This document shows positions 22,856-47,461 of a stretch of DNA of 64,000 nucleotides, piece by piece (the stretch's first letter is position 1; each line of letters starts with the position of its first letter). The stretch comes from Clostridia bacterium (GTDB lineage: Bacteria; Bacillota_A; Clostridia; Oscillospirales; CAG-272), in assembly GCA_017445115.1 (NCBI GenBank), contig JAFSUU010000122.1:21087-85086 (forward strand), given 5' to 3'. The position numbers and the translations under genes were made by a program. The notes beneath the pieces were generated by a model. The model was not told where the DNA came from. It saw only the letters and a list, made by a program, of their open reading frames with translations, and made no database searches.

Positions 22856-22871
22856 AGAATAAATTAATATT

Positions 22872-22966
22872 TCGGCAAACCCGGAGAAATCCGGCGACGC
22901 AAAGCTATAGGGCCTCAAATGGCAGCCAGTTGCAATCCATTCAGTATTTGCCTGCCGCAATACTGA
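22872..22966 (+). promoter_or_regulatory. Cyclic di-GMP-I (GEMM) riboswitch
   Basis: GGCAAA, a CCGGA-GAAA-TCCGG hairpin with GNRA loop (22881-22894), GACGCAAAGC receptor (22896-22905), AGGGCCT and GGCAGCCAGTTGC match the class I c-di-GMP aptamer in order. A further hairpin (TCAGTATT/AATACTGA, 22941-22966) lies between aptamer and terminator and may be part of the switch. The downstream gene makes or senses c-di-GMP (GGDEF), so feedback is likely. The sign (on or off) is not decided by inspection. Confidence 0.88.
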
Positions 22967-33548: not shown

Positions 33549-33559
33549 ATATTGTCAAA

Positions 33560-33792
33560 GGCAATGACGGAGACGGAGATGCGGAGTCCGCGTTTTCAGA
33601 GAGGGAGGCGCTTGCTGTGAGCCGCCCATCGCGCCGCTAATCATTTCACTCCCGAGCCTGCCGGGTGATACGTAGTCCGGCACGGGTGAGACCGTTATAT
33701 CTTGCAAGAGTGCCGGCGGATCTTCGCCGGAATTCGGGTGGTACCGCGGAGTATTGTTGCCCCGTCCCGTTGCGGACGGGGTATTATATTTC
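33560..33792 (+). promoter_or_regulatory. T-box leader of pheST
   Basis: The T-box sequence GGGTGGTACCGCGG is at 33736-33749, followed by a terminator stem CCCCGTCC (33760-33767) / GGACGGGG (33774-33781) and a TATTATATTT tail. Stem I elements include GACGGAGA and CAGAGAGGG. A TTC (33645-33647) on the 3' side of stem I is the likely specifier codon, fitting phenylalanine. Uncharged tRNA-Phe should stabilise the antiterminator and switch the operon on. Confidence 0.92.
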
Positions 33793-40989: not shown

Positions 40990-41064
40990 GGCCCGTTGGT
41001 CAAGAGGCTAAGACATCGCCCTCTCACGGCGAAAACATGGGTTCGATTCCCGTACGGGTCACCA
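40990..41064 (+). tRNA. tRNA-Glu (CTC)
   Basis: Acceptor GGCCCGT/ACGGGTC, D arm TGGTCAAGAGGCTAAGACA, anticodon stem TCGCC/GGCGA with loop CTCTCAC (anticodon CTC, reads GAG), T arm TGGGTTCGATTCCCG, CCA encoded at 41062-41064. A complete normal tRNA, in contrast with the CCA-less tRNA-like RNA at 43906. Confidence 0.96.
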
Positions 41065-41533: not shown

Positions 41534-42787
41534 ATGGCTTACAGCGAGCTGATCAAGAGCTTTGAGAAGATCCGTAACTATATGCGGGAATTCTACGTTT
41601 ACGGGTTCAAAAGTCGCGATGAATACACTAAGAAAAGCGCGCGTTCCTACGACGATGAGCGCCGCAGGATCGAGAGCTATCTCGGCGACTATATGAGATT
41701 CAGGCAGACACCCGAAGGAAAGAACGTATTTCTGTCGATAGACAGCAGGACGGCTCGCCGCAATCCGTTGTATCGTGCGTGGGGAGCGAAGAGCTTTACG
41801 GACGGAGACATCACGCTCCACTTCATCCTGTTCGATATACTCTGTTCGCCGGACATATCGCTCACTCTGTCGGAGATCACGGAGAAGATAGACACATATC
41901 TTTCGGTATTTGAAGATCCGAAATGCTTCGATGAATCGACGGTCAGAAAGAAGCTCAAAGAATACGTAAACGAAGGGATAATAGTCGCTGAAAAGTGCGG
42001 CAGAACGGTTTATTACAGACGCGCGGATGACGTGCCTGCGCTGCCTCGCGAAGCGACAGGCTTTTTCTCCGAAGTCGCGCCGTGCGGTGTGGTCGGATCG
42101 TTCATTCTTGATAAAGAAGGAAAACGAGACGGGCCCTTCGCATTCAAGCATCACTACATAACGTCCGCGATGGACAGCGGAATCCTCCTCGAGCTCTTTG
42201 AGGCGATGAACGAAAAGCGGTACATTACTATCGAAAATGAATTGAAACGAAAGGAAAAGATAAAAGAGTTCAACGTCGTTCCGCTTCAGATAAGGATAAG
42301 CGTTCAAAGCGGAAGACAGTATCTTATGGCTTACCTGCCGAGCGTAAAGCGGGTGACTTCGTTCAGAGTAGACAGAATACTATCTGTCAAGGCCGGCGAG
42401 GTATGCAAAGATTATGATTCTCACCGTGAAAAGATCGAAAGAATGGCGGATAATCTCTGGGGAGTCAGCACGCAAAGCACTTCTGGCGACCGCCTCGAGC
42501 ACATAGATTTCACCGTCGTATATTCGGATCGGGAACAATTCATTCACAACCGCCTCGAGCGTGAAAAAAGATGCGGTACGGTCGAGCGGATCGATGACAG
42601 CACGTCGAAATTTTCGGCAGACGTCTATGACGCGCGAGAACTTATGCCGTGGATCAGGACTTTTATCTGCAGAATAACCGAACTTCACTGCTCGAATAAA
42701 GCGGTTGAAGATCATTTCATGGACGACTTCAACCGGATGTGCGAGATGTACGGAGTTGAAGGAGGTGAGATGAGTGATATTCAGTGA
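41534..42787 (+). CDS. WYL domain regulator 1
   Basis: 417 residues, soluble. N-terminal ~170 residues look like a winged-helix region (FILFDILCSPDISLTLSEITEKIDTYLSVF..., STVRKKLKEYVNEGIIVAEKCGRTVYYRR). The middle and C-terminus form the WYL region (EFNVVPLQIRISVQSGRQYLMAYLPSVKRVTSFRVDRILSVKAGE), with a WCX-like end. WYL proteins bind nucleic acid or nucleotide ligands and regulate stress and defence operons. GGAAGGAGG site. Overlaps WYL gene 2. By position it should control the RNA array, DUF2828 and rtcB downstream. Confidence 0.8.
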   Translation: MAYSELIKSFEKIRNYMREFYVYGFKSRDEYTKKSARSYDDERRRIESYLGDYMRFRQTPEGKNVFLSIDSRTARRNPLYRAWGAKSFTDGDITLHFILFDILCSPDISLTLSEITEKIDTYLSVFEDPKCFDESTVRKKLKEYVNEGIIVAEKCGRTVYYRRADDVPALPREATGFFSEVAPCGVVGSFILDKEGKRDGPFAFKHHYITSAMDSGILLELFEAMNEKRYITIENELKRKEKIKEFNVVPLQIRISVQSGRQYLMAYLPSVKRVTSFRVDRILSVKAGEVCKDYDSHREKIERMADNLWGVSTQSTSGDRLEHIDFTVVYSDREQFIHNRLEREKRCGTVERIDDSTSKFSADVYDARELMPWIRTFICRITELHCSNKAVEDHFMDDFNRMCEMYGVEGGEMSDIQ

Positions 42788-43685
42788 ACTGTACGGCGCG
42801 TATTACAATGCGGTAGCCGCACTTTTACGAGAGGCGTCGGATAAGGCCCTTTGTCAAAAAGAGATGCGCGAGATCGTTGAAAGATACGCGTTCGCGGAGA
42901 GTACTCTTTCGATCATTCCCGCGATAGAGGAAGAAAGATGGCAGCTTATGAAGGACGGCCGGAGCATCCTGAAACATGCGCCGACGATGCCTCTTACGAC
43001 TCTCCAGAAAAGATGGATGAAGGCGATCTCTCTCGATCCGAGGATCAAGCTGTTCACGGGAGACGAGGACCTGTTTCCCGACGTCGAGCCGCTGTTCAGG
43101 AAAGAGGATATTTACGTTTACGATAGATATTCTGACGGAGATCCGTACGAGGACGAGGGGTATAAAAATCGATTCAGAAAGATACTTGAAGCGATAAATA
43201 ACAAAACGCCTCTTTCGCTGAATCTTGTCAACAGAGTTGGAAACCCGATCTATATGGTCATGGTCCCGGAATATCTCGAGTATTCCGAGAAAGATGATAA
43301 ATTCCGGCTGATCGGGACGGGTAACAGATACGGCGGAACAATTAATCTCGCGCGTGTAGTCGACTGCAAACCGTATAAAAAAGAATTCAGGTATACAAAG
43401 CCGGTGATAACGCGGACGTCTGAAAAAACGGTAGTGTTTGAAGTGACCGACGACAGAAACGCTCTCGAACGGGCGATGCTCCATTTTGCTCATTTCGAAA
43501 AGAGCGCGGAAAGGATCGATAACAACAAATATCGCGTGTCGCTCAAGTATGACAAGTACGACGAAACAGAGATCGTCATCAGGATACTTTCCTTCGGACC
43601 GATGATAAAAGTCATCTCACCGGATTCGTTTACGGAGTTGATAAAAGAAAGACTGAAAAAACAAAAAAGTTGCGGGCTCGGATGA
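42774..43685 (+). CDS. WYL domain regulator 2
   Basis: 303 residues. GTG start 42774, seven nt after GGAGG, overlapping gene 1 by 14 nt. Helical N-terminus (ALCQKEMREIVERYAFAESTLSIIPAIEEERWQLM), then a WYL-like beta region (NNKTPLSLNLVNRVGNPIYMVMVPEYLEYSEKDDKFRLIGTGNR...INLARVVDC) and a WCX-like C-terminus. WYL identity is weaker than in gene 1. The two probably form a heteromer. A strong terminator overlaps its last codons. Confidence 0.7.
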   Translation: MIFSELYGAYYNAVAALLREASDKALCQKEMREIVERYAFAESTLSIIPAIEEERWQLMKDGRSILKHAPTMPLTTLQKRWMKAISLDPRIKLFTGDEDLFPDVEPLFRKEDIYVYDRYSDGDPYEDEGYKNRFRKILEAINNKTPLSLNLVNRVGNPIYMVMVPEYLEYSEKDDKFRLIGTGNRYGGTINLARVVDCKPYKKEFRYTKPVITRTSEKTVVFEVTDDRNALERAMLHFAHFEKSAERIDNNKYRVSLKYDKYDETEIVIRILSFGPMIKVISPDSFTELIKERLKKQKSCGLG

Positions 43686-43703
43686 GTTCGCAACTTTTTT
43701 TCC
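43663..43703 (+). terminator. Terminator of the WYL operon
   Basis: AAAAAAGTTGCG (43663-43674) pairs with CGCAACTTTTTT (43689-43700); it begins inside the WYL gene 2 end and separates it from the RNA array. Confidence 0.88.
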
Positions 43704-43723
43704 GTGATTTTCCTTTTTGACGT

Positions 43724-43732
43724 TGATACAAT
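43724..43732 (+). promoter_or_regulatory. Probable promoter of the RNA array and repair genes
   Basis: TGATACAAT (extended -10 TGn + TACAAT) 10 nt before the first unit. The -35 region is poor (GTGATT at 43704), again suggesting an activator. Confidence 0.55.
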
Positions 43733-43742
43733 AGCAGACAGA

Positions 43743-43827
43743 AAGACGCCCACAGCAATCTGTTCTGACATTAACGAACTGCCCTTGCGGGATTGTGTTC
43801 GAGGACTTGCCGAAAGGAGGCGTCTTG
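43743..43827 (+). ncRNA. Array RNA unit 1
   Basis: Closing stem AAGACGCC (43743-43750) / GGCGTCTT (43819-43826), ACAGCAA box at 43752-43758, final G after CTT. The middle includes CCC-TTGC-GGG (near 43783-43792). 85 nt. No ORF. It opens an array whose members share ends but not middles. Confidence 0.75.
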
Positions 43828-43832
43828 AAGTA

Positions 43833-43898
43833 AAGGCACGGACAGCAACGTGATCCACCACTACTAACTTAAAAATGATCATCGGAAAACGTGCCTTG
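43833..43898 (+). ncRNA. Array RNA unit 2
   Basis: Stem AAGGCACG (43833-43840) / CGTGCCTT (43890-43897), ACAGCAA at 43842-43848. Shortest unit, 66 nt. The middle has TGATC/GATCA around an AU-rich loop containing CTTAAAA, the usual loop of tRNA-Leu(UAA), though without a proper stem. Confidence 0.75.
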
Positions 43899-43905
43899 TC
43901 AATAT

Positions 43906-43976
43906 GCGCCGGTAGCTCAGCGGTTGAGTGGGGACTAAAAATCCCCGTGAGGCAGGTCCGACTCCTGCACGGCGCA
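43906..43976 (+). ncRNA. tRNA-like RNA with AAA anticodon, no CCA
   Basis: A complete 71-nt cloverleaf: acceptor GCGCCG/CGGCGC with a G-A seventh pair, D arm GCTC/GAGT, anticodon stem GGGGA/TCCCC with loop CTAAAAA (anticodon AAA), five-base variable region, T arm GCAGG/CCTGC. Deviations from a working tRNA: T loop TCCGACT has C where pseudouridine 55 should be, anticodon AAA is almost unknown in bacteria, and no CCA follows (the window's tRNA-Glu encodes one). It sits between units 2 and 4 in the same spacing and lacks the AAGGC/CAGCAA ends. Best read as a tRNA mimic or degenerate tRNA. Confidence 0.75.
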
Positions 43977-43980
43977 ATAT

Positions 43981-44067
43981 AAGGCGCACACAGCAAACTA
44001 TGTGAGCACGGGACTTCTAATCCCGGAGGCTGGCGGAATAATATTCCGAGCAACAAACTGCGCCTTG
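43981..44067 (+). ncRNA. Array RNA unit 4, Arg(UCU)-like anticodon arm
   Basis: Stem AAGGCGCA (43981-43988) / TGCGCCTT (44059-44066), ACAGCAA at 43990. Inside, GAGCA then CGGGA-CTTCTAA-TCCCG, a canonical anticodon arm with UCU, and a second hairpin CGGAAT-AAT-ATTCCG closed by GCT/AGC. The GAGCA...GACTTCTAATC text matches ordinary tRNA-Arg(UCU). Confidence 0.8.
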
Positions 44068-44078
44068 TCCGACTCAAT

Positions 44079-44095
44079 GAGGCGATGGCCTCTTG
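44079..44095 (+). other. Mini-hairpin between units 4 and 5
   Basis: GAGGC-GATG-GCCTC followed by TTG: the same outer form as a unit (stem then TTG) with no interior. Possibly a collapsed unit. Confidence 0.4.
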
Positions 44096-44099
44096 AATA

Positions 44100-44178
44100 A
44101 AGGCACCTTCCAGCAAATTCGTTCTCCATTAGTCTGTTATTCCAGACATTTCGGGCTTGAACACCCGGGGGTGCCTTG
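44100..44178 (+). ncRNA. Array RNA unit 5
   Basis: Stem AAGGCACC (44100-44107) / GGTGCCTT (44170-44177), box variant CCAGCAA (44110-44116). Two inner hairpins: GTCTG-TTATTC-CAGAC and CGGG-CTTGAACA-CCCG, the latter like a T arm (TTGAA). 79 nt. Confidence 0.75.
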
Positions 44179-44191
44179 TAAACACAATAAA

Positions 44192-44272
44192 AAGATGCAG
44201 GCAGCAAAGTATTTGTCAGGTAAGTTCTGACCCAAACCGTTTACCGGTTTGAAATTCCAAAAACGCATCTTG
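44192..44272 (+). ncRNA. Array RNA unit 6
   Basis: Stem AAGATGC (44192-44198) / GCATCTT (44265-44271), box GCAGCAA (44201-44207). Inner hairpins GTCAG-GTAAGTT-CTGAC (seven-base loop like an anticodon arm) and AAACCG-TTTAC-CGGTTT. The base change G to A in the stem 5' strand (AAGAT) is matched by C to T on the 3' strand (TCTT), a compensatory change. Confidence 0.75.
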
Positions 44273-44276
44273 TAAA

Positions 44277-44366
44277 AAGGCGCATACAGCAATATTTGGT
44301 GTTAGCAGGGGACTTGTAAACCCCCGTCGCTGGCGGAAGCATTTCCGTTAATCAAACTGCGCCTTG
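44277..44366 (+). ncRNA. Array RNA unit 7, Thr(UGU)-like anticodon arm
   Basis: Stem AAGGCGCA (44277-44284) / TGCGCCTT (44358-44365), ACAGCAA at 44286. Anticodon-like arm GGGG-ACTTGTAAA-CCCC with loop CTTGTAA (UGU), then GCTGGCGGAA-GCAT-TTCCG, a module shared with unit 4 (GCTGGCGGAATAATATTCCG). Confidence 0.8.
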
Positions 44367-44376
44367 TTCTGACAAA

Positions 44377-44455
44377 AAGGTACGTGCAGCAAAGCATATT
44401 CTTGCGCAAGACAACGATCTTAAACGGACGGCATGCAAAGCCGTAACGTACCTTG
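44377..44455 (+). ncRNA. Array RNA unit 8, Cys(GCA)-like anticodon arm
   Basis: Stem AAGGTACG (44377-44384) / CGTACCTT (44447-44454), box GCAGCAA (44386-44392). Inner palindrome CTTGCGCAAG and an arm ACGGC-ATGCAAA-GCCGT, seven-base loop with GCA in the anticodon position. Confidence 0.75.
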
Positions 44456-44460
44456 AAATA

Positions 44461-44568
44461 AAGGCACCGACAGCAACTGTAATCTCTGAAGCCGGCAAAA
44501 AAGTACGGCAGGTGACTGAAAATCACTGTGCAGGACTTATATAGTCCGCGGAAACAAACGGTGCCTTG
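44461..44568 (+). ncRNA. Array RNA unit 9, Phe(GAA)-like cloverleaf
   Basis: Longest unit, 108 nt. Stem AAGGCACCG (44461-44469) / CGGTGCCTT (44559-44567), ACAGCAA at 44470. Three inner arms in cloverleaf order: GCCG/CGGC (D-like), GTGA-CTGAAAA-TCAC with the exact tRNA-Phe anticodon loop (GAA), and GGACT-TATAT-AGTCC. The ACAGCAA box overlaps the stem end. 33 nt separate it from the DUF2828 gene with no terminator, so array and genes are probably one transcript. Confidence 0.8.
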
Positions 44569-44601
44569 TAATTTGATTTTAATGCAAAAGGAGTGATTCT
44601 A

Positions 44602-46077
44602 ATGCTGGAATACATAAAGAATGAAGCAAACATGACGTTAACCGAAAACGGAGCGGCGACATACGAGTCCACGGGCTCGGAATGTCTCGACCTCTTTGCG
44701 ACCATCGGTGCCCTGCGCCGTGCGAGCGATGAAGAAATCATAACCAGATTTGTCCGTGCATACACCGAAAATCCCGACACAGCAATGAAGATGCTCTTCT
44801 TTGCAAGAGATATCAGGGGAGGCCTCGGCGAGAGACGCGTATTCAGAGTGATACTCAACTGGCTGGCAGCAAATGAGCCTGCGTCGGTAAAAAAGAATCT
44901 TGAATACGTCGCAGAATACGGACGCTATGACGATCTGCTCTCACTGATCGGTACTCCTTGTGAAAAGGAAGCAATCGACGTAATCAGAGCTCAGTTTATC
45001 AAGGATACGGAAGCTCTCGAGAGCGAAGGTAACGTTTCTCTTCTGGCAAAGTGGCTTCCTTCCGTCAACGCATCGAACTCCGGGACAAAGGCGCTCGGTA
45101 AAAAGATCGCAAAGGCGCTCAGTTTCTCTGAAGCTGAGTACAGAAAGGCCCTGAGTGCGCTTCGTGCAAAAATACGCATCATAGAGAACAATCTCAGAGA
45201 AAAGGATTATTCTTTTGATTACGAAAAGCAGCCGTCCCGGGCTATGTTCAAGTACAAAAAAGCGTTCATCCGCAACGACAGTAAGCGCTATAACGAATTC
45301 ATAAACGCTGTCGCCGCCGGGAGTAAGACGCTTCACGCAGAAAACGTCTCTCCTTACGAGCTCGTTGAGCCGTATCTGTTACCGCATTGGTACGGAGGTA
45401 AGGATATCACCCCGGCCGAAAAGGAAGTTCTGAATGCAACCTGGGCGTCCATTCCTGACTTCGGCAGTGATGAAAACGCAATTGCAGTGATCGATACGTC
45501 CGGATCGATGTACTGTTGCTCAAATCCCGTACCCGCCGCTGTTGCTCTTTCGCTCGGACTGTATTTTGCAGAGCACAATACCGGCGCGTTCAAAAATCAT
45601 TTTATAGAATTTTCCGCACGTCCTCAGCTCATAGAGATCAAAGGTGAAACCTTTGCCGACAGACTTCGCTATGTTACCTCGTTCAACGAGATAGCAAACA
45701 CGAACCTTGAAGCCGTATTTGATTTGATCCTGAATGCCGCGGTGAAGAACAACGTTTCTCAGAACGAACTTCCCGCAAAGCTTGTGATCATTTCCGATAT
45801 GGAATTTGACCGGTGCGTCAACAACGCGTCGGCAGTAAACTTCCAAAACGCGAAGAAGAAGTATGAATCACATGGCTATACTCTTCCCAAGATCGTATTC
45901 TGGAACGTCGCAAGCCGTAACCGTCAGCAGCCGGTAACACAAAACGAACAAGGCGTAGCGTTGATCTCGGGTGTGACCCCGCGCATCTTCTCCATGGTTG
46001 CAGGCGGGATTCTTTCCCCGTTTGCATTAATGATGGAAGTGCTCGGGAGCGAGCGCTATGCTAAAATAGCTGCGTAG
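44602..46077 (+). CDS. DUF2828 / Ro60-like TROVE-vWA protein
   Basis: 491 residues from ATG 44602 (AAAAGGAG upstream; GTG 44593 overlaps that site). The N-terminal helical part (NGAATYESTGSECLDLFATIGALRRASDEEIITRFVRAY..., FFARDIRGGLGERRVFRVIL, GRYDDLL) has the HEAT-repeat features of TROVE domains. A von Willebrand A domain follows, with MIDAS motif DTSGS at 298-302 and ISDMEFD near 400. Ro60 proteins bind Y RNAs and misfolded RNA ends; DUF2828 is, to my knowledge, a distant relative. The RNA array just upstream is the obvious ligand candidate, and rtcB follows. Ro60 relationship is from pattern, not a search. Confidence 0.75.
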   Translation: MLEYIKNEANMTLTENGAATYESTGSECLDLFATIGALRRASDEEIITRFVRAYTENPDTAMKMLFFARDIRGGLGERRVFRVILNWLAANEPASVKKNLEYVAEYGRYDDLLSLIGTPCEKEAIDVIRAQFIKDTEALESEGNVSLLAKWLPSVNASNSGTKALGKKIAKALSFSEAEYRKALSALRAKIRIIENNLREKDYSFDYEKQPSRAMFKYKKAFIRNDSKRYNEFINAVAAGSKTLHAENVSPYELVEPYLLPHWYGGKDITPAEKEVLNATWASIPDFGSDENAIAVIDTSGSMYCCSNPVPAAVALSLGLYFAEHNTGAFKNHFIEFSARPQLIEIKGETFADRLRYVTSFNEIANTNLEAVFDLILNAAVKNNVSQNELPAKLVIISDMEFDRCVNNASAVNFQNAKKKYESHGYTLPKIVFWNVASRNRQQPVTQNEQGVALISGVTPRIFSMVAGGILSPFALMMEVLGSERYAKIAA

Positions 46078-46083
46078 AAAAGG

Positions 46084-46115
46084 CGGGCGGATCGATCATG
46101 GATCCGCCCGTTCTT
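46084..46115 (+). terminator. Hairpin between DUF2828 and rtcB
   Basis: CGGGCGGATC (46084-46093) pairs with GATCCGCCCG (46101-46110), then TTCTT. Weak terminator or mRNA-stabilising hairpin setting the ratio of the two proteins. Confidence 0.6.
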
Positions 46116-46130
46116 GAAAGGAGAAATAAT

Positions 46131-47399
46131 ATGTTTGACATAAAAGGAAAAGTGAATACCGCGGTCTGCTACGCGCGAGTCGTTGAAGACGACGCGATCG
46201 AACAGATACGGAGAATGTGCGACTACGAGCTCACAGAGGGCTCCCGGGTCCGCATCATGCCCGACGTGCATTTCGGCAAGGGTTGCACTATCGGAACTAC
46301 AATGACTGTCACGGACAAAGCTTGCCCCAACATTGTCGGCGTCGATATCGGCTGCGGAATGTATACCGTAAAGCTTGAAAATAAAGAACTCAATTTTGAA
46401 AAAATCGACGAAGCCGCGCACTATATACCCTCCGGGATGAATACGTGGGAAGGCCGGATCGAGCGATTCGACTTAACAGTGCTTAAGTGTTACCGTTCCC
46501 TCAATCACTCGAAAAGACTTGAACGGTCACTCGGGACCCTCGGCGGAGGAAACCACTTTATCGAGATAGATAAAGCGTCGGACGGAACGTTCTATCTCGT
46601 GATCCACTCCGGAAGCCGGAATCTCGGCAAGCAGGTCGCGGAGATCTACCAGCAGCTCGCAATAGACCTTCACGCGGGCAAGGAAGATTACTTCGCAAAG
46701 AGAGATGAAATCATAACCACTTATAAAGCGGAGGGAAGGCGTACCGAGATACAAACTGCTCTGAAAAAACTCGAAAAGGAATACAAAAAGAAGATGCCTG
46801 ACGTGCCTGAAGATCTCTGCTGGCTGTACGGCACATTTCTCGATGACTATCTCCATGACGTCGAGATCTGTCAGAGATTCGCGCGCCGGAGCCGCGAGCT
46901 GATGGCCGAGATCATACTCGACCGGACAGGTATGACGGCATCCGAATCCTTCCACACAATACACAACTATATCGATACGGACGAGATGATTCTTCGCAAA
47001 GGCGCGATCGCAGCGCACGCGGGCGAAAAGGTGCTGATACCTATCAACATGCGCGACGGGTCCGTCATCGCAGTCGGCAGGGGGAACCCCGAATGGAACT
47101 TCTCCGCGCCTCACGGAGCCGGACGCATCATGTCCCGCAGCAAAGCAAGAGACGTGATCGATATAGAAGCGTATAAAGCGGCGATGGAGGGTATCTATAC
47201 GACTTCCGTCAACGAACAGACTCTTGACGAAGCTCCTATGGCGTATAAGTCGATAGACGATATAATCGACGTCATCAGAGATTCGGTCGATATTCTTGAC
47301 ATCATGAAGCCGGTGTATAATTTCAAGGCCGCGGAGGACGATCTTCCCTGGAAGAAAAGGAAGAGAAACGGTGATGAAATGTCGGAAGAAGATCTATAA
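46131..47399 (+). CDS. rtcB: RNA-splicing ligase RtcB
   Basis: 422 residues from ATG 46131 (GAAAGGAG upstream). All catalytic blocks present: MPDVHFGKGCTIGT, VDIGCGM (Cys75), GGGNHF (His142), HSGSRN (His159), HTIHNY (275-280) and SAPHGAGRIMSR, where His328 is the residue guanylylated by GTP. RtcB joins 2',3'-cyclic phosphate ends to 5'-OH ends using Mn2+ and GTP, repairing tRNAs cut by anticodon nucleases. Pairing with a Ro60-like protein and structured RNAs parallels the rsr-Y RNA-rtcBA operon of Salmonella; here WYL proteins stand where RtcR would be. Confidence 0.93.
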   Translation: MFDIKGKVNTAVCYARVVEDDAIEQIRRMCDYELTEGSRVRIMPDVHFGKGCTIGTTMTVTDKACPNIVGVDIGCGMYTVKLENKELNFEKIDEAAHYIPSGMNTWEGRIERFDLTVLKCYRSLNHSKRLERSLGTLGGGNHFIEIDKASDGTFYLVIHSGSRNLGKQVAEIYQQLAIDLHAGKEDYFAKRDEIITTYKAEGRRTEIQTALKKLEKEYKKKMPDVPEDLCWLYGTFLDDYLHDVEICQRFARRSRELMAEIILDRTGMTASESFHTIHNYIDTDEMILRKGAIAAHAGEKVLIPINMRDGSVIAVGRGNPEWNFSAPHGAGRIMSRSKARDVIDIEAYKAAMEGIYTTSVNEQTLDEAPMAYKSIDDIIDVIRDSVDILDIMKPVYNFKAAEDDLPWKKRKRNGDEMSEEDL

Positions 47400-47421: not shown

Positions 47422-47461
47422 GGTCAGACGCCTATCCGGCGTCTGACCGCATTTTTTATTT
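47422..47461 (+). terminator. Terminator of the RNA-repair cassette
   Basis: GGTCAGACGCC (47422-47432), TATCC loop, GGCGTCTGACC (47438-47448), tail GCATTTTTTATTT. Confidence 0.88.

Follow-up and report, generated by a model that had tools for sequence, protein, structure and literature searches.

An array of predicted Y-RNA-like small RNAs next to genes for a predicted Ro60-fold protein and the RNA ligase RtcB in a Clostridia bacterium

Introduction

Bacterial Y RNAs are mostly known as single RNAs, and their purpose is unclear. What, then, should we make of a locus where noncoding DNA (43743-44568), placed between two regulator genes and the genes of a DUF2828 protein and of RtcB, holds not one but eight short RNA-like units and a full cloverleaf? 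This arrangement is found in a Clostridia bacterium, within a stretch of 64,000 nucleotides that was analysed as a whole and that we name the window. All features located below lie on its + strand. A sequence-only reading had seen there tRNA mimics, a Ro60-like protein and a repair ligase. Here we ask what the units have in common, what holds them, and what they may be for.

The genes of the locus

Two WYL genes had been announced, and both were recovered: the first (41534-42787) matches Pfam WYL (1.2e-8), while the second (42774-43685), with no Pfam match, is recognized by the PADLOC WYL model (2.5e-7). Upstream homologues of these genes exist in 67 and 69 of 80 relatives, respectively. The open reading frame of DUF2828 spans 44593-46077, with an ATG at 44602, so that the gene is placed at 44602-46077. 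It is followed by rtcB (46098-47399; Pfam RtcB, 2.6e-59). Alignment of its product to a solved RtcB covers DIGCGM, GGGNHF, HSGSRNLG and PHGAGR, which we take to be the active-site motifs. The pairing of DUF2828 with rtcB, proposed from the window, is thus sound there by Pfam and by alignment, but it is not universal: RtcB is near DUF2828 in 64 of 80 relative loci. In 8 loci with enough sequence to show one, the 6 kb downstream contained no match to RtcB, and similarity to the window's RtcB revealed none in 80 viral loci. In some loci, rtcB lies upstream of the array.

Eight units with a common handle

A stem of 7-9 bp (consensus AARRYRC/GYRYYUUG) closes each unit, and ACAGCAA follows it. We name this combination the handle. 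CAGCAA occurs eight times in the array, at 43753-44471. A covariance model, R2, was derived from 35 units taken in other records, to the exclusion of the window's own. Over the 64 kb, on both strands and at E ≤ 1, it matched exactly the eight units and nothing else: unit 1 (43743-43827, E 9.5e-5), unit 2 (43833-43898, 1.6e-6), unit 3 (43981-44067, 8.7e-5), unit 4 (44100-44178), a variant with CCAGCAA and an 8 bp stem that is the weakest of the eight (0.022), unit 5 (44192-44272, 1.5e-4), unit 6 (44277-44366, 1.4e-5), unit 7 (44377-44455, 6.5e-4) and unit 8 (44461-44568, 6.3e-5). Unit 6 belongs to repeat families D9 and D11, unit 8 to D9. A short hairpin (44076-44097, -9.2 kcal/mol) separates units 3 and 4. 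Together with the tRNA call described below for the cloverleaf, by ARAGORN and Rfam, these matches bear out the composition that had been read from the letters, eight short units and one full cloverleaf.

Folding was compared with that of dinucleotide shuffles: eight of nine elements had z values between -2.2 and -4.2, unit 1 reaching just -1.4. Among 80 relatives, a stem score of at least 7 was found at 246 of 288 CAGCAA sites, and at 18 of 288 after shuffling. The rows of set A6, namely 24 of the 38 listed short bacterial units and 11 viral or phage ones, were picked by a stem rule. Because they were chosen for pairing, the pair counts drawn from them lean towards structure and are not independent. 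The family of the array RNAs is absent from Rfam 15. Its members do display a feature by which Y RNAs, in the broad sense, are recognized: a terminal stem in which the 5′ and 3′ ends pair, along with an unpaired element that is conserved. Many of the heads that these stems carry are plain hairpins.

Other types of repeats were considered and set aside. Type III toxin-antitoxin RNA repeats do not suit units whose interiors differ and whose next gene has a predicted Ro60 fold. As for integron attC sites or CRISPR repeats, the stem ends and ACAGCAA are all that the units share, as judged by eye. The tie with DUF2828 and the orientation on one strand speak against miniature transposons.

A promoter between the WYL genes and the array

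The sequence-only reading had stated that no terminator separates the array from the genes. This holds on the downstream side: a pattern scan gave no terminator-like site from the array through DUF2828 to rtcB, the next one on the + strand being the hairpin at 47422-47448, after rtcB. It does not hold upstream, where WYL gene 2 ends in a hairpin with a T run, likely a terminator (43663-43705), made of a 17-nt inverted repeat (43663-43679/43684-43700, 88% complementary). The hairpin is missing from the list of the pattern scan and was found as an inverted repeat. A conserved promoter follows (43699-43732), with TTTCCGTGAT at 43699-43708 and TACAAT at 43727-43732. Its TTTCCGTGAT motif is present in 63 of 70 loci, and in 61 of the 70 a -10 element accompanies it at a single, constant distance (shuffles, 0.5%). 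The window has one copy of the motif, at unit 1. Since the hairpin with its T run and this promoter lie between them, the WYL genes are, by their sequence context, a transcription unit separate from the array. TTTCCGTGAT is likely a WYL operator at the -35 position.

A predicted Ro60 fold for DUF2828

At E ≤ 0.001, Pfam finds only DUF2828 and DUF7788 in the window protein, and keeps these families apart from Ro60/TROVE. A profile search against PDB sequences at E ≤ 1 did not match DUF2828 to Ro60 either (1yvr, 2nvo, 9l5y). The likeness is one of predicted structure. With 72 sequences (A3), the AlphaFold model of DUF2828 reached a pLDDT of 88.9, as compared to 61.6 with 16 close relatives alone, and structure comparison revealed a HEAT ring with a vWA domain, as in Ro60. 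D298, S300 and S302 of the vWA metal-site motif DxSxS are invariant in the 72 sequences. The assignment of DUF2828 as Ro60-like, made initially from the sequence, agrees with this predicted fold (TROVE + vWA). The array thus adjoins the gene of a predicted Ro60-fold protein, a second property expected of Y RNAs in the broad sense; and if DUF2828 folds as Ro60, the units are most simply understood as Y-RNA-like RNAs set in arrays.

Are the heads tRNA-like?

The cloverleaf (43905-43977) is a free tRNA-like element with AAA at the anticodon position, detected by ARAGORN, by Rfam (tRNA, 39 bits for a cut-off of 29) and by model R1 (35 bits). It ends in GCGCAATATA, with no encoded CCA, which could be added later. 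The eight units behave differently: none was scored as a tRNA by ARAGORN, Rfam or R1. Their tRNA-likeness would rest on three anticodon-arm-like hairpins, CGGGA-CTTCTAA-TCCCG in unit 3, GGGGA-CTTGTAA-ACCCC in unit 6 and GGTGA-CTGAAAA-TCACT in unit 8, and on the relatives. By a strict count the array holds two such hairpins, a number that 1 of 2000 shuffles reaches. When the window is tiled with 77 stretches as long as the array, 2 of them hold that number too.

In relatives, at least 42 units enclose a tRNA core with the order D-anticodon-T within the handle, the acceptor arm and CCA being missing. The anticodon arms there have stems of 5 bp that covary and loops that have diversified, and the T arms covary too. 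Both the R1 cores and the rows of A4 (28 of the 42 cores) were selected with a tRNA model, so that their pair counts also lean towards structure. The initial proposal of tRNA-like units with varying anticodon arms is therefore borne out by these cores, not by the window's eight units, which escape scoring as tRNAs. What stays constant is the handle and not a tRNA body. ARAGORN called a tRNA in 18 of 244 units and saw none in the other 226.

A 7-nt loop is lacking in 9 of the 42 cores, and U33 in 9 of the remaining 33, so that the anticodon loop does not stay faithful in every core, which counts against bait. Conservation in the cores is stronger for the T and D features than for this loop, as one would expect if the heads were adaptors rather than bait for nucleases, the main rival to the reading that we prefer. 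The units would then be tethers similar to the Y RNA of Deinococcus, with heads that link the Ro60 ring to PNPase or tRNA-modifying enzymes, different heads making different RNA-decay or quality-control machines. The abundance of plain hairpins among the heads goes along with it, and so does YrlA, whose basal stem tethers Rsr and whose tRNA-like domain is both a binding site for PNPase and a substrate of the modifying enzymes DusA and TruB (PMC8394870). Yet adaptors alone explain neither the covarying 5-bp anticodon stems with their diversified loops nor the proximity of RtcB in 64 of 80 loci, and we see this account as possible but rather doubtful. YrlA was reported to be no substrate of the Salmonella nuclease (PMC7790460), a point which counts against the bait reading.

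Could the anticodons name an enemy? In a test of natural identity, A36 or U36 predominates (25 of 33), an excess too slight, in our view, to identify the nuclease targeted. Phe-type loops would suit nucleases that cut between two adenines, and ordinary tRNAs would suit them equally.

Complete tRNA-Phe genes with CCA lie within the arrays of loci L015, L018, L070 and L052, and DUF2828 phages have large tRNA clusters. Hence the idea of a reserve cassette: spare tRNAs, often Phe, that can serve in translation and are stored next to a repair ligase, while the remaining units would be decayed copies. This is very improbable: the handle is strongly conserved while the cores have lost acceptor arm and CCA, and the free tRNAs found between units, some with CCA, are a minority of the elements.

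Spread across Clostridia and phages

The absence of comparable arrays beside other DUF2828 genes had been named in advance as what would count against the sequence-only reading. Such arrays were found. Among Clostridia loci where WYL2 is matched upstream, all 69 have the handle upstream of DUF2828; among phage-type DUF2828 loci, 58 of 80 do. A scan of 196 genomes met it in 12, every one a DUF2828 genome, and always adjoining DUF2828. One genome without DUF2828 (G396) gave a single R2 match (E 9.7e-4), which looks like chance. Under stricter filters some DUF2828 genomes gave no R2 match: 6 of 18 in the order sample, and in the phylum sample 2 of 7. The idea of a multi-member array carries over as well, with eight units in the window and up to nine per locus elsewhere. 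Anaerotignum lactatifermentans DSM 14214 (L038), a cultured host, has the same locus. DUF2828 itself occurs in 682 of 50,697 phage records, and FADO, a phage of Bacillus subtilis, carries the gene. Phage loci also hold tRNAs with the handle motif inside the anticodon loop; the long phage tRNAs are a hand-picked set of 30 among the matches listed (300 of 464), 8 of them without CAGCAA. The forms of Listeria phages and mycobacteriophages escaped our strict unit rule, and their motifs were found by reading the DNA.

The last unit ends less than 50 nt from the start of DUF2828 in 58 of 78 sources, as if the array were mainly a long 5′ leader that DUF2828 binds, controlling its own expression and that of rtcB. 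The free tRNAs between units would agree with this, the tRNA features being remnants of tRNA genes that served for processing. Such a cis-acting leader, however, has no need of up to nine units per locus, nor of phage units located several kb from DUF2828 or downstream of it, nor of an rtcB gene preceding the array, and we hold it to be unlikely.

A proposed explanation

We propose that 43743-44568 is an array of eight predicted small noncoding Y-RNA-like RNAs, and give the explanation as a whole a confidence of about 0.6. Its parts are not equally firm. That the units form a Y-RNA-like RNP is highly probable, and the handle is likely, from sequence conservation, the docking site of the predicted Ro60-fold DUF2828. 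The heads are probably meant to be read as tRNAs. That they are bait for nucleases is the reading we prefer; it is plausible, if tentative. The scenario would unfold as follows. Upon sensing of RNA damage, the WYL proteins would act on the TTTCCGTGAT promoter, and the array transcript would be cut into single RNAs, the embedded tRNAs being likely processing points. DUF2828 would grip each RNA at its handle, exposing a head that, having retained the mimicry of D, T and anticodon arms while losing acceptor arm and CCA, might engage tRNA-directed enzymes. Together, heads that differ in their anticodon arms would lure anticodon-cutting nucleases away from the real tRNAs, and RtcB would reseal both cut baits and cut tRNAs. 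More speculatively still, and we would not count on it, bacteria and phages might maintain a set of tRNA look-alikes, open to expansion, that dock on Ro60 and differ in their anticodon arms, switched on by WYL damage sensors and resealed by RtcB, as a general bait panel against anticodon-cutting nucleases in three layouts, with the handle at the acceptor end, in the anticodon loop or around a permuted tRNA.

Hundreds of copies of one handle with different heads make it possible to read, and to test, which part is fixed, for docking, and which is varied, facing tRNA enzymes. If true, the bait reading would explain the recurring company of Ro60, Y RNAs, RtcB and tRNA fragments, and would add a tRNA-protection system of phages and gut bacteria not described in the literature searched. 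Even with adaptors, a large RNA family tied to DUF2828 is missing from Rfam 15. The literature searched contained neither a pairing of DUF2828 with RtcB nor an array of Y RNAs; earlier mention is possible in Burroughs and Aravind (2016), Chen et al. (2014) and Sim et al. (2020).

Comparison with known systems

Phages provide near relatives. Y RNAs in mycobacteriophages were reported by Chen et al. (2014), as cited in PMC12282133. The 'Ro-like RNA binding protein' of JoeDirt (mycobacteriophage cluster L) is a DUF2828 protein (38% identity), with three ACAGCAA motifs just downstream of its gene, one of them around a YrlA-like permuted tRNA; compared with the window, it has three RNAs, no WYL gene and no such promoter motif. 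Listeria phage CKA15 encodes the Rsr-like CKA15_055 and makes abundant unannotated RNAs, for which the authors suggest upstream Y RNAs; the excerpted text of PMC12282133 assigns these RNAs no identity and describes no tRNA-headed array, in contrast with the window. LP-124, a relative of CKA15, has three ACAGCAA units just upstream of its DUF2828 gene.

YrlA (RF02553), the partner of Rsr, is a small modular RNA: its paired ends form a basal stem, its head resembles a tRNA, and its gene neighbours that of a Ro60-fold protein and often rtcB (PMC8394870; PMC7790460). The window's units are likewise modular, closed by a basal stem, and next to a Ro60-fold gene and rtcB. They are not YrlA: RF02553 has no match in the window, nor in 43600-44620 at E ≤ 5, and exceeds its cut-off in none of 8 records, sub-threshold matches being uninformative as 13 of 14 control genomes give them too. 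YrlA has permuted D, T and acceptor arms and no anticodon arm (RF02553 alignment; PMC8394870); no such T-acceptor-D domain was found in the window units or in the relatives' cores. In the relatives' heads, by contrast, the D, T and anticodon arms remain and the acceptor is gone; their handle has ACAGCAA, and up to nine units stand in tandem. Finally, the Salmonella rsr-yrlBA-rtcBA operon, like the present locus, unites a Ro60 protein, Y RNAs and RtcB. Its regulator is the sigma-54 activator RtcR, with a CARF domain, whereas the two genes upstream here are WYL genes; the Ro protein here is DUF2828, and the RNAs are many more, and more varied.

The locus and its repeated unit

Every part that a sequence-only reading had assigned to 41534-47399 is present: two WYL genes, a non-coding array of 830 nt, a DUF2828 gene and rtcB. 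WYL gene 1 matches the Pfam WYL family, and WYL gene 2 the PADLOC WYL model only. The gene for DUF2828, a protein of predicted Ro60 fold, starts at the ATG at 44602, within an ORF listed from 44593, and the rtcB product aligns with solved RtcB across conserved segments. The array, read as eight units plus a cloverleaf, does contain eight CAGCAA sites and one tRNA-like cloverleaf, tRNA being the sole Rfam family that exceeds its cut-off there. A small hairpin followed by UUG, at 44076-44097 between units 3 and 4, may be a decayed unit or a spacer. Elsewhere in the window lie two Gut-1 RNAs (Rfam RF01706; 28093-28173 and 52301-52376), barely above cut-off, a T-box leader (33555-33772), a c-di-GMP-I riboswitch (22864-22937) and a tRNA-Glu gene (40990-41064).

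The eight units, predicted small RNAs, share one order: a stem strand AARRYRC, N(N)ACAGCAA, some 40 to 85 nt of interior, and finally the complementary strand with CUUG. We term the terminal stem with ACAGCAA the handle, and the interior the head. Comparison with 80 related loci from Clostridia-type genomes (81 sources with the window) gave 244 units under a strict rule, in 78 of the sources, and a relaxed rule gave 280 units in the 80 loci, with none in shuffled sequence and one on the reverse strand. Wherever a WYL2 match lies upstream (69 loci), the WYL2-DUF2828 interval holds at least one unit (69/69), at least two in 60 and nine at most. A handle-unit covariance model derived from 35 short units, window units left out, retrieved from the 64-kb window (E<=1) the eight array units and no other match.

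The handle accompanies DUF2828

Within one order (196 genomes), this model matched in 12 genomes, all of them among the 18 with DUF2828, and every match lies on the contig of DUF2828, directly upstream of its gene. The 178 genomes of the order without DUF2828 gave no match, though RtcB is present in 50 of them; RtcB is found in 14 of the 18 DUF2828 genomes. A phylum sample of 398 genomes yielded matches in six, five of which belong to its seven DUF2828 genomes; the sixth has one weak match and lacks DUF2828. In 80 viral contigs whose DUF2828 protein has about 40% identity, 92 units were found on the coding strand, one on the other and none in shuffles, and 58 of the 80 loci carry at least one. 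The motif also occurs in Bacillus phage vB_BcoS-136, Enterococcus phage EF1, Listeria phage LP-124 and mycobacteriophage JoeDirt; it was not found in Escherichia phage CL1 under the strict rule. A handle that stays constant while DUF2828 drifts to 40% identity is how a binding site would be expected to look, and we infer that DUF2828 binds it.

Heads with tRNA cores and anticodon arms

By ARAGORN, most units are not tRNAs (18 of 244 are). A tRNA model built from 40 real tRNAs found a tRNA core, usually without acceptor positions, in no fewer than 42 units, spread over 37 loci, in a sample of 50 loci plus the window that we chose among loci matching in a first search with the tRNA model. In 28 of these 42 cores, covariation of the handle, anticodon stem and T stem exceeds that of 500/500 shuffles and lies far above slid controls; two anticodon-stem pairs have changed on both sides in 14/28 and 15/28 sequences. 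The anticodon loop has 7 nt in 33 cores, with U33 in 24 and a purine at 37 in 29, and other sizes, plain tetraloops among them, in the remaining nine. Seventeen different triplets occur among the 33 loops, most commonly AAA, CAU, UAU, GAA and UCG, and in six of the seven loci with at least two such loops the triplets all differ. None of the window's eight units scored as tRNA with ARAGORN, Rfam or the tRNA model; units 3, 6 and 8 each have a hairpin resembling an anticodon arm, with a CU-NNN-AA loop (triplets UCU, UGU and GAA); in the free cloverleaf the triplet is AAA.

Predicted transcription and release

WYL gene 2 ends in a hairpin with a T run (43663-43705). Directly behind this hairpin comes TTTCCGTGAT. 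In 61 of 70 loci a -10 hexamer stands behind this motif, always at the same spacing; the motif alone is found in 63 of the 70, and the shuffle rate is 0.5%. It has one copy in the window, and 5 of 60 loci have it upstream of WYL gene 1; we infer that the WYL proteins bind it. The window's -10 ends 10 nt ahead of unit 1, which would therefore form the 5' end of the transcript. A pattern scan bears out that no terminator separates array and genes, the + strand having no terminator-like site from the promoter down to 47422, and DUF2828 starts 50 nt or less from the end of the last unit in 58 of 78 sources. Free tRNAs adjoin units without spacer in several arrays, so that tRNA processing would release the units. 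Complete tRNA-Phe(GAA) genes, CCA encoded, are embedded next to units in the arrays of L015 (5789-5864), L018 (5794-5869), L070 (5796-5871) and L052 (4979-5054). The arrays of L025, L031 and L036, upstream of DUF2828 and with no WYL1 match, stand right behind tRNA gene clusters with 4, 28 and 26 ARAGORN calls, respectively.

Phage layouts

Among 30 long tRNA-model matches (110 to 154 nt) that we picked from phage loci, 22, in 12 loci, carry CAGCAA mid-element, in the anticodon loop behind a hairpin, the tRNA body being otherwise complete. Bodies with the loop replaced by hairpin and ACAGCAA lie at L085 5236 and 5434; L113 5232, 5559 and 5679; L126 4798, 5419 and 5748; L087 5224, 5544 and 5666; L096 5366; L121 5731; L145 5001; and L081 2750 and 2881. 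This insertion is a circular permutation of the handle. A trio of handle-bearing bodies, one resembling tRNA-Gly, recurs in several phages. In matches of 144-154 nt (L091 2913-3058, L097 74-227, L125 3254-3405, L108 5108-5251), inspection by eye suggests that the anticodon loop of one tRNA houses a second tRNA-like element. JoeDirt (L161 6440-6720) has three ACAGCAA motifs downstream of its Ro-like gene, and one handle there encloses a YrlA-like permuted tRNA (39.8 bits; below the cut-off of 69). Core units, anticodon-loop insertions and this permuted tRNA are therefore three layouts in which a tRNA body is joined to one handle. Upstream of DUF2828, LP-124 (L162 4459-5010) has a ROOL-like RNA scoring 87.4 bits (E 3.3e-16), under its cut-off of 99.1, which may be the counterpart of an abundant unannotated RNA in the related phage CKA15.

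Proposed working and known systems

RtcB seals RNA ends produced by metal-independent RNases. In Salmonella, according to one study, rsr-yrlBA-rtcBA is switched on by 5' tRNA halves with a cyclic phosphate, the cuts separating two adenines within the anticodon loops of tRNAs for Trp, Tyr, Cys, Phe and fMet (PMC7790460). WYL and CARF proteins are predicted sensors of nucleotide signals (PMC4012209). Because of these three points we favour a damage-induced RNP in which DUF2828 would display tRNA-like heads as bait and RtcB would carry out repair. The main rival makes the units adaptors, as Y RNAs are known to be for PNPase (PMC8394870); bait and adaptor can both hold.

Neither Rfam 15 nor the literature searched, with partial coverage, yielded the ACAGCAA handle family or tandem arrays of it, or any mention of anticodon-armed heads, a WYL-linked promoter or phage tRNA anticodon-loop insertions. 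One transcriptome study of phages proposes that a Listeria phage has Y RNAs lying upstream of its Rsr-like gene (PMC12282133). Already known are Y RNAs that contain tRNA-like domains, phage Ro60 proteins and rsr-Y RNA-rtcB operons.
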